DNA from: Ignavibacteriaceae bacterium
GTDB taxonomy: Bacteria; Bacteroidota; Ignavibacteria; Ignavibacteriales; Ignavibacteriaceae
DNA length: 56,531 nt
Assembly (NCBI GenBank): GCA_013360295.1
Contig: JABWCL010000030.1
Span: 1-56,531, forward strand
Direction: 5' to 3'
The notes beneath the pieces were generated by a model. It did no database searches and was not told the origin of the DNA. It saw only the letters and a list, made by a program, of their open reading frames with translations. Positions 34,887 to 38,934 of this stretch are shown one piece after another (positions within the stretch are counted from its first letter, which is position 1; each line of letters begins with the position of its first letter). Both the position numbers and the translations under genes were made by a program.

Positions 34887-35918
34887 ATGAAAACATTAAG
34901 ATTTTTAACGTTGGCAGTTTTTGCCGTTTTTCTTTCCGGCTGCTATACGCAGCTCGCGATCGAGGAGCGCCGTCCTGAAAGGACATATACTTACGAGAGC
35001 TACGGTGACGAAGAGTACACTGAAAGCGATACGATATATTACGATGAGGAAGAAGCATCCCAAGGGGAAGTAAAAAATATCTACATTCTCCCCGGCTACA
35101 GAAGATATCTTTGGCACTATTATCCTTCCACTTCGATAGTAATCGGCAGCGGTTATTATTTTGACTATTGGTTATGGGATACGTGGTACCCAAGATGGTG
35201 GTACTGGGATCCCTGGTATCCGCCGGTAGCCTATTATCCATTCTGGTATTATCACCCAAATTATTACTATTATGGCGGTTATCATTGGGATAACTACAAT
35301 AATCCCAAAACTTATAAATACAGGGATAATAACATTTCGCGAATCAGGAACAACGACGGAGGACGCGGAAGCAGTTATACCACCCGCGATGCAATTAAAG
35401 CATACGATCGTAATCGTCCGGCTACCCGCGAGGGAGTCGGCGCACGTGAAAGTATCGGTACACGTGAAGCAATATCCACGCGTGAAAGTGAAGTAAACCG
35501 TAACGGCAGAGTTTCCACGCAGGGCAGAACCGGCGTAACCCGTGAGGAAAACAAAGGAACAGTAAGGGATGGAAACCGCACAAAGGATCCCGGCAACACG
35601 GGCAGGACTCCGGAAGTACGTCCGAGGCAGCGTGAAAATGACCGCGAGCCCGCTCGGGAACGGAAACCGGTTTATGTACCGCGCGAACGAAAGAAAGATA
35701 CTGAAAAGAAAGCCCCTGCAAGATCCAATGAATCTGAGCGGAGGAGAGTAGTGCCGAATGATGATAACTCCGGAAGAAGGAGTACGCCTCCTTCATATAA
35801 TCCGCCTTCTAACAATGGTGGTTCAAGGCAGAGCACTCCGCCTTCAAGAAGCGGAGGGAGCAGCAGCGGCGGTAACCGTGGCAGCGGCAGTAATGACAGT
35901 CCAAGGAGATCACGATAA
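34887..35918 (+). CDS. Aromatic-rich, Arg-rich low-complexity lipoprotein
   Basis: 343 residues with an AGGAG site upstream. The lipobox LSGC gives Cys19. An acidic Tyr/Glu stretch (about 32-60) leads to a segment (71-140) in which about 30 of 70 residues are Tyr or Trp (YYFDYWLWDTWYPRWW). Then comes a disordered, Arg/Asn/Ser/Pro-rich half with imperfect repeats around GARESIGTREAISTRE, ending in Ser/Gly/Arg runs. No enzymatic motif. Similar Tyr/Trp-rich lipoproteins occur in Bacteroidetes without known function. It is the first gene of a three-gene run with 2-bp gaps. The strong cationic tail could bind polyanions such as LPS, capsule or DNA; this is inference. Confidence 0.8.
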   Translation: MKTLRFLTLAVFAVFLSGCYTQLAIEERRPERTYTYESYGDEEYTESDTIYYDEEEASQGEVKNIYILPGYRRYLWHYYPSTSIVIGSGYYFDYWLWDTWYPRWWYWDPWYPPVAYYPFWYYHPNYYYYGGYHWDNYNNPKTYKYRDNNISRIRNNDGGRGSSYTTRDAIKAYDRNRPATREGVGARESIGTREAISTRESEVNRNGRVSTQGRTGVTREENKGTVRDGNRTKDPGNTGRTPEVRPRQRENDREPARERKPVYVPRERKKDTEKKAPARSNESERRRVVPNDDNSGRRSTPPSYNPPSNNGGSRQSTPPSRSGGSSSGGNRGSGSNDSPRRSR

Positions 35919-35920
35919 CA

Positions 35921-36457
35921 ATGAATAAATTTATTTTAACATTAATTATATCAACACCGTTCTTTTTAACCGGGTGCTATACAGTACTGGTTTCTGATGT
36001 ACATACTCAGGACTTCACGGCGGAAGAACGAACTGCAGAAACCAACTATTTTTATTATGATGATGGTTACTACGGCGACTATTATTATTTCTACAATACT
36101 CCCTGGTGGGCTTATTATGGTTCCGGTGGCGTGGTTGCAGATCCCGCAAAGCGTGAAGAAAATAACCGGGGGACACAGGAAATGCTTCTCAGGCGCGAGG
36201 GGACAGGAAGGGCAGCACCGGAAGGACGCGGCGTCACTGTACCGTCTGCCACCCGCTCACAGGAAGGGAGCAGTTCGGGCAATAAAAATTCTGTAAAGCA
36301 GGGTGATGAACCCAAGCCAAAAAAAGTTGAAAAAAGCAGCGATAACAACAGTTCGCAGAGTAATACAAATACCCAGAGCCGACAGGGTTCAAACAGCAGC
36401 GGCAGCAATAATACAAGGAATGACGGTGGCCGGGCAACCGACCCTAAAAGGAGATAA
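35921..36457 (+). CDS. Second low-complexity lipoprotein, shorter relative of its upstream neighbour
   Basis: 178 residues. The lipobox LTGC gives Cys19, followed by YTVLVSD, much like the GCYTQL start of the gene before it. A short Tyr/Trp block (about 43-68, NYFYYDDGYYGDYYYFYN) replaces the long one of the neighbour. The rest is a disordered Ser/Asn/Gln/Lys/Arg tail. The shared lipobox context, aromatic block and charged tail argue for common origin or common role. It begins 2 bp after the upstream stop and ends 2 bp before the barrel gene, so the three are very likely one transcript with coupled translation. Confidence 0.78.
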   Translation: MNKFILTLIISTPFFLTGCYTVLVSDVHTQDFTAEERTAETNYFYYDDGYYGDYYYFYNTPWWAYYGSGGVVADPAKREENNRGTQEMLLRREGTGRAAPEGRGVTVPSATRSQEGSSSGNKNSVKQGDEPKPKKVEKSSDNNSSQSNTNTQSRQGSNSSGSNNTRNDGGRATDPKRR

Positions 36458-36459
36458 AA

Positions 36460-37884
36460 ATGAAACGATTTTCTTTTGCATTAGTACTGATGATCTTCTT
36501 AAGCATTTATGCTAACGCCCAGACAATCAATGACGCGCTAAGGCTTTCATATCCGATTAAGACCTTCAGCGCCAGGGCGCTTGGTTTAGGTAATACTTAT
36601 ACAGCGCTCAGCGATGATGCCGCAGGTGTGGCTTTCAATCCCGCCGGACTCGGATTCATCCGCAAACTTGAGATTGCGGGCAGCCTGAAATATGATAATT
36701 TTAATAACACGGCTACTTTCTTTGGTAATACAACCGAGTATTCTAACAGCAGTACCGACATAAGCCAGCTGGCATTTGTTTTCCCTTTCCCGACAATGCG
36801 CGGCAGTTTTGTGATCGGGTTGTCATATAACGAATCGAATAATTTTAACGGAGCTCTTAACTTTAATTCATTTAATAACGGTGACAGTTCATACATCCAG
36901 CACCTGAACGCCATTGGTTCGGATGTGCCTTTTGATCTTTATCTTACTGATGATAACTATTATACAAAAATTAAGGGTAAACTTAATCAGAGCGGCACAG
37001 TACTGGAAGACGGAAATACACGTGACTTTGGCTTAAGCGCGGCAGTTGAGGTTTATAAAAATTTATTTGTAGGCGGTACGCTTAATATCATTTCCGGCAA
37101 ATATAAATTCAACCGCGATTACTATGAAGATGATACCAAGGGTATTTATGACAATGATACTCTCGCTCCCGGATACGCTTTTTCGAGAGATTTCAGGACA
37201 TTGAATCTTAACAGCATCCTTGACTGGGAGATAGCAGGATATGACTTCAAACTCGGGCTTATTTACCAGACAAAAATCGCACGCATAGGAGCAACAATTC
37301 AGTTCCCTAAATCGCTGACTGTTAAAGAGAAATACGCGTTAACAGGTAAAGCAAGTTTTATCGGAAACCAGGAGTACAGCCTTGATCCGGATAAGTATTC
37401 GGATAATGTTGAGTATGACATTATTACACCGTTTGAGTTCAATCTCGGCGCAAGCGTAAACTTTATGGGGCTGATAGTAACCGGAGAAGTTGGACTGGTT
37501 GACTATACCCAGATCGAGTATGATAATCCGCGCGGACTTACACTGAACTATGTGCAGGGACTGAACAAGCAAATCAAGGAAAACTTTAAGGCTGTGGTAG
37601 ATCTTCGTGCCGGTATGGAATATACCATCAAGGACCTTGATATGAGAGTCCGGGCCGGTTTCTTCACACAGAATTCGCCGTATCAGAATGATCCAAGCGA
37701 ATATAACAGGACATTTATCACCGGCGGTTTCGGATTTTTGATTGACCAGGTTGTGGCGATTGATTTCACTTACGCTCACGGCTTCTGGAAAACTTACGGC
37801 GATAATTACGGAGCGGGTATTTCCAGGACATTCCAGGATGTTACATCGTCCAAACTCATCGCTTCGTTCAACTACAGGTTCTGA
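36460..37884 (+). CDS. FadL/TodX-family outer-membrane beta-barrel protein
   Basis: 474 residues with a signal peptide ending at ANAQ. The family mark is the ALGLGNTYTALSDDAAGVAFNPAGLGFI segment (split here as ALGLGNTYTAL and AFNPAGLGFI), followed by alternating beta strands and a C-terminal Phe (ASFNYRF) recognised by the Bam machine. FadL proteins carry hydrophobic compounds across the outer membrane; related barrels in T9SS organisms (PorV type) act in secretion, so both roles are open. It is the last gene of the cassette with two aromatic-rich lipoproteins, and a terminator follows. Confidence 0.82.
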   Translation: MKRFSFALVLMIFLSIYANAQTINDALRLSYPIKTFSARALGLGNTYTALSDDAAGVAFNPAGLGFIRKLEIAGSLKYDNFNNTATFFGNTTEYSNSSTDISQLAFVFPFPTMRGSFVIGLSYNESNNFNGALNFNSFNNGDSSYIQHLNAIGSDVPFDLYLTDDNYYTKIKGKLNQSGTVLEDGNTRDFGLSAAVEVYKNLFVGGTLNIISGKYKFNRDYYEDDTKGIYDNDTLAPGYAFSRDFRTLNLNSILDWEIAGYDFKLGLIYQTKIARIGATIQFPKSLTVKEKYALTGKASFIGNQEYSLDPDKYSDNVEYDIITPFEFNLGASVNFMGLIVTGEVGLVDYTQIEYDNPRGLTLNYVQGLNKQIKENFKAVVDLRAGMEYTIKDLDMRVRAGFFTQNSPYQNDPSEYNRTFITGGFGFLIDQVVAIDFTYAHGFWKTYGDNYGAGISRTFQDVTSSKLIASFNYRF

Positions 37885-37903: not shown

Positions 37904-37936
37904 AGGGCGGGTTGTTAACTCGCCCTTCTTTTTTTA
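37904..37936 (+). terminator. Rho-independent terminator after the envelope cassette
   Basis: AGGGCG at 37904-37909 pairs with CGCCCT at 37921-37926; the stem can extend inward through GTT/AAC. A T run with one C follows. Confidence 0.8.
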
Positions 37937-37980: not shown

Positions 37981-38934
37981 ATTCTCGGTAAACTGACGAA
38001 AATAGCGAGCAAAGACTATTATGTACTTCCCGACGGAGGAGGGGAGGAAATAAGATGTATGCTCCGGGGAAAATTCAAACAGGATATTGTCCGGAAGAGG
38101 GAAAGGATGCTTCTTGCGGATTATGCTGTTGTCGGGGATAAAGTCGAATACGAAGTTAAGAGGGGCTCAGGCGTAATTACCAAAGTTTTTGAAAGGGAGA
38201 ATTTTATTTCCCGAAAAGCTCCCAGGCTGAAAGGAGCCGGTTACCGCGGAGAGAGGCTTGAACAGCTAATTGTTTCCAACATATCTCAATTTGTCGCCGT
38301 CACATCAGTATATAAACCATTCTTCAACAACAAAGTACTTGACCGCTTTCTCGTCATCGCTGAAAGTTCCAAAATTCCGGTCATAATAGTAATTAATAAA
38401 ACAGACCTTGACCCCGATAACCTTATTGATGAATGGGTTTATCTTTATAATAAAATTGGTTATAAAGTTATCCTTACATCCGCGGAAACGAAAGAGGGGA
38501 CAGACCTGCTAGGCGAAGTACTAAAAGGGAAAACAAGTTTTTTATGGGGGCAGTCCGGTGTTGGGAAGTCCACGCTGCTTAATACGATATTTCCACATTT
38601 ACATCTTGTGGTAGGAGAAGTAAGCAAGTTTACGAACAAGGGAAAGCATTCTACCGTTATGGTTCGAATGATTAAAACGGGGGATGAAACCTATATCGTT
38701 GATACTCCCGGCGTGCGCGAGATAGATCCTTATGGTCTGAGGAAAGAAGACTTAGGCCACTATTTCATAGAATTTGAACCATACATAAATAACTGCAAAT
38801 ACAACACCTGCACTCACAACCACGAGCCGGGATGCGCCATTATAGAAGCGGCTGAGAACGGTGAAATAAGCGCGGACCGGTACGACAGTTATCTCCGGAT
38901 ACTGGAGACGGTGGAAGAGGATATTAAGTTTTAG
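37981..38934 (+). CDS. rsgA: Ribosome small subunit GTPase RsgA, apparent ATT start
   Basis: The first ATG is at 38059 (291 residues), but the frame continues upstream and encodes GKLTKIASKDYYVLPDGG and EEIRC, the normal start of the OB fold, back to a TGA at 37948. The only start-like codon with a good site is ATT at 37981, with GGAGAG six bases before it (317 residues). The GTPase is circularly permuted: NKTDLD, then GQSGVGKSTLLN, then DTPGVREID. A zinc knuckle CKYNTCTHNHEPGC follows. It matures the 30S subunit. An ATT start is known for infC, so such a start is possible but rare. Confidence 0.88.
   Translation: MLGKLTKIASKDYYVLPDGGGEEIRCMLRGKFKQDIVRKRERMLLADYAVVGDKVEYEVKRGSGVITKVFERENFISRKAPRLKGAGYRGERLEQLIVSNISQFVAVTSVYKPFFNNKVLDRFLVIAESSKIPVIIVINKTDLDPDNLIDEWVYLYNKIGYKVILTSAETKEGTDLLGEVLKGKTSFLWGQSGVGKSTLLNTIFPHLHLVVGEVSKFTNKGKHSTVMVRMIKTGDETYIVDTPGVREIDPYGLRKEDLGHYFIEFEPYINNCKYNTCTHNHEPGCAIIEAAENGEISADRYDSYLRILETVEEDIKF

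Follow-up and report, generated by a model that had tools for sequence, protein, structure and literature searches.

What does an outer-membrane barrel do when its gene stands directly behind those of two lipoproteins rich in aromatic and basic residues? The question is raised by a stretch of 56,531 nucleotides from an Ignavibacteriaceae bacterium (assembly GCA_013360295.1, contig JABWCL010000030.1, positions 1 to 56,531 of the forward strand), referred to here as the window. Three genes lie on its + strand, each 2 bp from the next. LP1 (34887..35918) encodes a lipoprotein of 343 amino acids (aa) with a Tyr/Trp block and an Arg-rich low-complexity tail, LP2 (35921..36457) encodes a lipoprotein of 178 aa with a shorter aromatic block and a basic tail, and the third gene (36460..37884) encodes a 474-aa outer-membrane barrel of the FadL superfamily. 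The answer to which we give an even chance is that these genes represent an old and widespread two-part outer-membrane unit of the Bacteroidota, comprised of a scaffold barrel and a docked, sticky lipoprotein, with an extra lipoprotein in many Ignavibacteria.

Linkage of the lipoprotein and barrel genes

In the order to which the bacterium belongs (116 genomes, its own included) the barrel is matched at E<=0.001 in 115 genomes and at E<1e-20 in 112. The larger count includes three genomes with E>1e-4 only (G006, G035 and G060); one genome, G096, has no match. A query comprised of the N-terminal 158 aa of LP1 finds matches in 81 of the 116 genomes, and in 77 of these 81 the match is upstream of the barrel match, on the same strand and 0.5–1.7 kb from it. 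Three of the remaining four have the matches on separate contigs, and one is without a barrel among the matches listed.

Profile searches of 395 genomes of the phylum find LP1 in 125 and the barrel in 327, weak matches included; at most four barrel candidates were scored per genome, so the absences of the barrel are weak. Outside the order the lipoprotein and the barrel are adjacent in 62 of the 65 genomes that have both among the matches listed, a count which leaves out 20 of 85 lipoprotein-containing genomes that have no barrel among the matches listed. The adjacency counts kept one lipoprotein match per genome, weaker second matches being dropped.

The linkage is also visible in composition. 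We inspected 45 loci of the order, 40 of other families and 20 from further Bacteroidia-like families, and scored open reading frames (ORFs) for at least 12 Tyr or Trp in 60 residues together with a basic low-complexity end. The ORF directly upstream of the barrel passes at 96 of the 103 loci with at least 900 bp of upstream DNA. None of 639 more distant ORFs from the same loci passes (at least 120 aa, ending more than 2.5 kb upstream or starting more than 0.3 kb downstream, on either strand), nor does any of eight regions upstream of BamG, PorV/PorQ-type or FadL-type barrels. Among the seven misses, L070 and L082 are near contig ends, and L198, L220 and L230 have a Tyr-rich upstream ORF which failed the basic-tail test. 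Loci L166–L185 were picked because the lipoprotein matched; the loci picked without regard to the lipoprotein are positive in 18 of 20 cases (L186–L205) and in 16 of 19 (L212–L231, one being too short). A Tyr/Trp-rich protein with a basic tail, as a rule a lipoprotein, is thus encoded directly upstream of the barrel in very distant genomes.

LP2 is less constant. A short lipoprotein labelled LP2, proline-rich ones included, is present in 31 of the 45 loci of the order, and in nine of the 45 LP2 is absent by inspection and LP1 abuts the barrel. Judged by gene content, conservation over the phylum as a whole extends to LP1 plus barrel, and LP2 is an add-on. A sequence-only reading of this DNA had described a three-gene envelope cassette; its expectation that the genes would occur together beyond this genome is borne out for LP1 and the barrel across order and phylum, and the cassette as a trio is not general.

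Features of the locus

The 2-bp gaps and the single terminator of that description are confirmed. A terminator-like hairpin with a T-tract (37904..37936, + strand) closes the unit; with 10 pairs at 37904-37926, it is the strongest such site of the region. Terminator-like sites number four against 5.0 expected, so the count by itself is uninformative. The three genes are probably co-transcribed. Among the 88 stop-to-stop frames of at least 100 aa in the window, only LP1 and LP2 reach at least 14 Tyr or Trp per 60 residues. A search for tandem repeats found none.

Compared with a genome of the same genus (G001), the proportion of nonsynonymous differences (pN) is 0.16 for residues 1–160 of LP1, 0.30 for the LP1 tail, 0.35 for LP2 and 0.12 for the barrel. 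The first 160 residues of LP1 are therefore under tighter constraint than its tail. The synonymous proportion (pS) is 0.72–0.79, near saturation, with 0.72 in the LP1 tail. Low pN beside near-saturated pS means that all three genes behave as selected protein genes.

The barrel

The whole barrel matches PF03349 (FadL/OMPP1/TodX) with 32.4 bits against a cut-off of 29.7, and the structure matches are of FadL type, as the sequence-only reading had it; in the genome scan a piece of the gene (37018-37797) scores 24.4 bits, below the cut-off. The AlphaFold model has a predicted local distance difference test score (pLDDT) of 90.2 and a predicted template modelling score of 0.84. Foldseek ranks BamG of Bacteroides thetaiotaomicron (BtBamG, 7.8e-22) and of Porphyromonas gingivalis (PgBamG, 1.4e-18) before FadL. 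The VIA aligner returns CymD, FadL, TbuX, TodX and three BamG chains at Z 34.1–29.4, with the channels on top, and PorV at 27–28; FadL (1t16_A) aligns over 377 residues with Z 31.9 and a root-mean-square deviation of 4.2. Members of the barrel family are about 470–570 aa long. The hatch motif NPA (residues 60–62, 36637..36645, + strand) is invariant in 34 alignment rows.

The mature N-terminus carries the signature QTINDALR (residues 21–28, 36520..36543, + strand). A loose pattern of this D-A-L-R type is shared by 37 of the 40 family members and by none of nine BamG, FadL or PorV-type proteins; this pattern and the RNxxGGR pattern described below were defined post hoc, from alignments already seen, so their counts are descriptive and the shuffles only a rough control. 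Since none of the three BamG proteins has the signature, the barrel's extension is present but of another sequence. The first aligned model residue is 23–24 for BamG chains, 26 for PorV and 27–37 for FadL-type proteins; this small difference agrees with an N-terminal extension in the model.

Within the FadL superfamily the barrels form a clade that excludes BamG, PorV/PorQ and the FadL-type transporters. In a quick tree of 49 proteins, with long branches among the PorV-type rows, 40 barrels are on one side of a branch with support of 98 in the Shimodaira–Hasegawa-like approximate likelihood ratio test (SH-aLRT); three BamG, four PorV/PorQ-type and two FadL-type proteins are on the other side.

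The genome of the window has a separate BamG (C60:139523-140755, 1.2e-33) and an ordinary FadL-type protein (C1:78078-79280, 242 bits). BamG is matched in 29 of 31 genomes, and at E<=0.001 in 316 of the 395; the BamG search model has two rows only. True BamG was identified in G185 and G127 by means of the PDB chains 9n2d_B, 9hiv_F and 9hjm_F and an NCBIfam model, and both genomes also hold the window-type barrel with its upstream lipoprotein (L212, L174). The BamG equivalog model NF053685 (cut-off 250 bits) gives L249 381.8 bits and L252 247.3 bits, 2.7 bits short, and relatives of the window barrel (L104, L096 and L085) only 51–59 bits. The window barrel itself has no match to the BamG model at 0.01. 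The orthologue L224 matched no BamG chain in the PDB sequence search, although the library contains 9n2d_B. L224 and g106 are, we presume, both from Flavobacterium.

The barrel is likewise below the models of the type IX secretion system (T9SS), scoring 44.9 bits for PorV_fam (cut-off 90) and 21.3 for PorVQ2, and staying under the cut-offs for PorV (250) and PorQ (220). The genome contains SprA (8.3e-302), a PorQ and further PorV-family barrels, and L208, L210 and L211 pass PorV_fam. SprA is matched in 304 of the 395 genomes (E<=0.001). Two genomes with a strong barrel match have no SprA match (G117, barrel 4.1e-36; G439, 5.6e-51), and a third (G358, 4.8e-44) has SprA at 9.3e-4 only. Given the barrel in G117 and G439, the unit seems independent of T9SS. 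None of the SprA matches comes from family f26, which we take to be Chlorobiaceae; BamG and the barrel are matched only weakly there, with E no lower than 5.6e-7 and 1.3e-6 respectively. According to PMC12611786, Chlorobiota are without BamG, BamH and SprA.

PDB sequence searches add little. The window barrel has no match at E<=10, and PorV comes closest to the family profile (3.5e-6). A mannanase match of the L224 barrel is attributed to chance, as are the pteridine-reductase and Shiga B-subunit models that matched single barrel rows at 0.001–0.008. A second barrel paralogue, 28–33% identical, occurs in seven genomes of the same family (G002, G013, G047, G050, G062, G068 and G072), and in G062 and G072 this paralogue is the best barrel match.

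The lipoproteins

Both lipoproteins begin with GCYT, with the Cys at position 19 in each, and LP1 is 1.93 times as long as LP2, close to the two-fold difference first noticed. In LP1 the motif CYTQ (34941..34952, + strand), which begins with Cys19, is invariant in the 25 rows of the alignment; Tyr at +2 and Thr at +3 are found in 38 of 39 proteins and Gln at +4 in 36. It is followed by an acidic linker and the aromatic block (residues 71–140, 35097..35306, + strand), in which 30 of 70 residues, 20 Tyr and 10 Trp, are aromatic, exactly the number first estimated. Next come the motif RNNDGGR (residues 154–160, 35346..35366, + strand) and a long Arg/Ser/Gly-rich tail (residues 161–343, 35367..35915, + strand) with 18.6% Arg and 42 Lys or Arg against 24 Asp or Glu. 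The tail of LP2 (residues 81–178) contains 18 Lys or Arg and 10 Asp or Glu. All 39 LP1 and 30 of 32 LP2 end in Arg or Lys. The N-terminal 178 residues of LP1 have a mean pLDDT of 49 in the AlphaFold model, which fits disorder, and a low-complexity alignment could also give such a value.

In 36 of 39 LP1 a pattern of the RNxxGGR type lies no more than 35 aa from the aromatic block, against 4.8 expected from shuffled tails. Among the 25 LP2 longer than 150 aa it follows the aromatic block in 19 (2.3 expected) and lies in the last 28 residues of 22 (1.4 expected). The LP2 of the window matches at the C-terminus only, in RNDGGRATDPKRR (36416..36454, + strand). LP1 and LP2 therefore have these motifs as well as the GCYT start in common. 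They may have arisen by duplication, as proposed, but their profiles align in hhalign over 31 columns only, which comprise the signal and GCYT, and some LP2-type proteins have a CxxCH that is absent from every LP1 of the order.

The lipoproteins had been proposed to bind a polyanion at the cell surface. Two or more acidic residues among the first six are read as a surface export signal in the BamH study (PMC12578637). At positions +2 to +7 of 39 LP1 there is no acidic residue in 34, one in four and two in one, so a surface location finds no support in this signal. By this rule LP1 and LP2 would stay unexported, and the rule may not hold in Ignavibacteria.

In other Bacteroidota the lipoprotein starts with CYTQ or with variants such as C(A/S)ST and CGSYQ. 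Pfam and NCBIfam contain no family for LP1 or LP2, stray weak matches at 0.05–0.24 being taken as chance, and a PDB sequence search with the L224 lipoprotein found no match. BamH, which has a folded body of two domains, is a DUF4270 protein, and a search of the genome for DUF4270 returned nothing. Since nine of 32 LP2 have Lys as the last residue, a covalent peptidoglycan anchor like that of Lpp was considered for the C-terminus. It was rejected: Arg is the last residue in 37 of 39 LP1 and 21 of 32 LP2, and several distant lipoproteins end in Asn, Asp or Gln.

Two variations touch LP2. Small LP2-type lipoproteins contain one CxxCH in five of 32 cases in the order (L104:4775-5359, L105, L082, L086 and L087), and three more LP2-type proteins of other families contain it (L167, L183 and L188). 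The motif, which is present neither in the LP2 of the window nor in any LP1 of the order, resembles a c-type haem attachment or metal site. In L104 (4449-4775) and in ORFs of L075, L078, L083, L089 and L101, LP2 is replaced or followed by short proline-rich lipoproteins (106–138 aa), most of which have basic ends; L104 has three lipoproteins in a row.

A proposed mechanism and its alternatives

Units of a barrel and a lipoprotein build the outer membrane of Bacteroidota, and the pair seems to be a so far undescribed relative of them. In the mechanism that we propose, the barrel would be a scaffold and not a channel. Its conserved N-terminal extension may fill the lateral opening, as in BamG, and the CYTQ start of the lipoprotein may dock on the barrel, as the N-terminus of BamH does on BamG. 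The rest of LP1, from acidic linker to Arg-rich tail, would be a disordered multivalent arm, which could retain a client at the membrane through aromatic, cation–pi and charge contacts; LP2 would be a second, shorter arm. We tentatively regard an unfolded or partly assembled envelope protein as the likeliest client and an anionic polymer as a possible second, the odds between the two being about even. A bolder version, which we find rather doubtful, is that this is a third machine on a FadL-type scaffold after PorV/T9SS and BamG in the beta-barrel assembly machinery (BAM). Its Tyr and Arg stickers would follow the grammar of eukaryotic condensate proteins and form a sticky, possibly phase-separated patch at the outer membrane. 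There envelope clients or polymers would be concentrated or chaperoned, CYTQ and RNxxGGR serving as docking sites.

Several observations weigh against a scaffold with a docked arm. Gene adjacency is no proof that LP1 binds the barrel. CymD, FadL and TodX (Z 29–34) fit the model as well as or better than BamG does (30–31), so the fold leaves transport possible. The alignments start only a few residues apart, and N-terminal deletion mutants are among the FadL rows. The tails vary widely in length and sequence, and the protein encoded upstream of the barrel at L217, L221 and L226 lacks a lipobox, though it has a signal peptide. In families f7, f16, f27 and part of f30 there are SprA and BamG matches and weak barrel matches, among at most four candidates per genome. 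Four genomes (G009, G034, G150 and G386) have a strong barrel match and no BamG match, so the barrel might replace BamG there. In other families the neighbours are housekeeping-like (proS-, rpoD- and cysS-like by eye) and give no functional hint.

Two alternatives assign the pair to a known machine. It might be the BamG–BamH of Ignavibacteria, or a paralogous pair like BamG2–BamH2; BamG chains head the Foldseek matches, the BamG model is matched by 28 of 34 members of the barrel family (E<=0.01, best 4.4e-19), the four genomes without a BamG match would be accommodated, and BamG2–BamH2 of B. thetaiotaomicron is a putative operon according to PMC12578637. We rejected a BamG identity, and consider this alternative very improbable, on the scores below the cut-off, the separate BamG in the same genome and in most others, the failure of L224 to find a BamG chain and the clade that the barrels form. 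The barrel might instead be a PorV/PorQ-type carrier of T9SS with the lipoproteins as sorting partners, a role that the sequence-only reading had mentioned in connection with PorV. The sub-threshold PorV_fam match, the place of PorV as nearest PDB sequence and the presence of SprA and PorQ in the genome favour it. The PorV_fam cut-off is missed, however, the SprA-less genomes retain the barrel and the tree sets it apart from PorV/PorQ-type proteins; this identity was also rejected, and is improbable.

The other two alternatives concern function. A transporter with a lipoprotein lid, in which the barrel moves a hydrophobic compound as FadL does while LP1 gathers or gates it with its aromatic block, would agree with the PF03349 score above cut-off, the invariant NPA hatch and the fit to CymD, FadL and TodX, and a Tyr/Trp block could bind aromatics. 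We think it unlikely: the N-terminal signature is absent from both FadL-type proteins tested, the genome has a normal FadL-type protein of its own, and the barrel is near-universal in the order. A rather doubtful alternative is an envelope tether, in which the basic arms of LP1 and LP2 hold an anionic polymer (lipopolysaccharide core, exopolysaccharide, peptidoglycan or DNA) and the barrel is a mere anchor. The net positive, Arg-rich tails and their basic last residues agree with this, as does a small YjbH-matching barrel upstream in 30 of the 45 loci of the order, the Pfam title of YjbH being exopolysaccharide biosynthesis. That match is borderline, though, the window has no YjbH-like neighbour, and an acidic stretch adjoins the lipid anchor. 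The tether overlaps the polymer-client form of the scaffold mechanism, so our confidences in these readings need not sum to one.

Neighbouring genes

The small barrel just mentioned is about 255–270 aa long and is also found upstream of LP1 in eight of the 40 loci from other families; an example is the ORF of 257 aa that precedes LP1 in L096. One such barrel matches YjbH with 24.4 bits (cut-off 24) over about 105 residues of the 658-position profile. In 22 of the 45 loci of the order it is preceded by a 128-aa membrane protein. In the window and in G001 its place is taken by a K+ channel with TrkA domains. This channel, with TrkA_N and TrkA_C, is directly upstream of the unit (window:33714-34730), and the G001 gene is 72% identical.

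Downstream, rsgA is the next gene in 37 of the 45 loci of the order. The rsgA GTPase of the window is listed at 38059-38934, and the codons ahead of the listed start read EIRC; in L085, KIRC stands before LRGKFK, and this match indicates that the true start is further upstream. A VapB–VapC toxin–antitoxin pair follows (window:39045-39712), above the NCBIfam cut-offs for Leptospira-type VapB and VapC. In other families a protein of 720–800 aa, penicillin-acylase-like by eye, is downstream of the barrel (L169, L187 and L201).

Relation to known systems

The claim that no system of this make-up has been described stands for the open-access papers searched, which hold no description of a pair of barrel and Tyr/Trp/Arg-rich lipoprotein; it had overlooked BamG–BamH (2025), a close parallel. 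The fold and the logic are already known; neither Pfam nor NCBIfam nor the papers searched contain the barrel family, its lipoprotein or their motifs. Twice before, a FadL-type barrel of Bacteroidota has proved to belong to a large machine: PorV to T9SS and BamG to BAM. With a further barrel clade kept, in much of the phylum, next to a low-complexity protein of its own, an envelope function may have been missed because low-complexity proteins get filtered out. For a specialist the surprise is that so widespread a pair is unnamed. If Flavobacterium carries the pair, as expected, such a function is open to tests in Bacteroidota that are in culture and genetically tractable.

The barrel shares its overall fold and NPA hatch with FadL, TodX and CymD, and differs from them in the D-A-L-R-type N-terminal extension, the linked lipoprotein and a clade of its own. 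With PorV and PorQ, themselves partners of a larger machine, it shares the superfamily and an N-terminal stretch before the hatch. It differs in size (about 470–570 aa, where the genome's four PorV/PorQ-type proteins have 309–345 aa), in scores below all cut-offs, in its presence in two genomes without a SprA match and in having a dedicated upstream lipoprotein.

YjbEFGH and Gfc are exopolysaccharide loci. Many relatives of the unit resemble them in having a small YjbH-like barrel beside lipoproteins; the Pfam match is borderline and covers about 105 residues, and in the window no such gene is beside the unit.

The closest likeness is to BamG–BamH. As described in PMC12578637, the conserved N-terminus of BamH forms a wedge inside the BamG barrel, and beneath the dome is a disordered, Tyr-rich loop of BamA; in PMC12611786 the N-tail of BamG threads the lateral opening. 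Common to both systems are a FadL-fold barrel with an extended N-tail, a partner lipoprotein with a conserved N-terminus, a phylum-wide distribution (PMC12578637, PMC12611786) and Tyr-rich disorder near the barrel, which there belongs to BamA. In contrast, the window barrel belongs to another clade and its genome encodes a BamG besides, most of LP1 is of low complexity and the protein has no acidic export signal, and the barrel and lipoprotein genes are adjacent, whereas in F. johnsoniae Fjoh_1412 (bamG) and Fjoh_0823 (bamH) are far apart in number. In this last respect the unit is nearer to BamG2–BamH2 of B. thetaiotaomicron (Bt1785–Bt1786), which PMC12578637 presents as a putative operon found by homology to BamG and BamH and predicted to be alike: by that description it, too, has adjacent genes for a FadL-type barrel and a lipoprotein.

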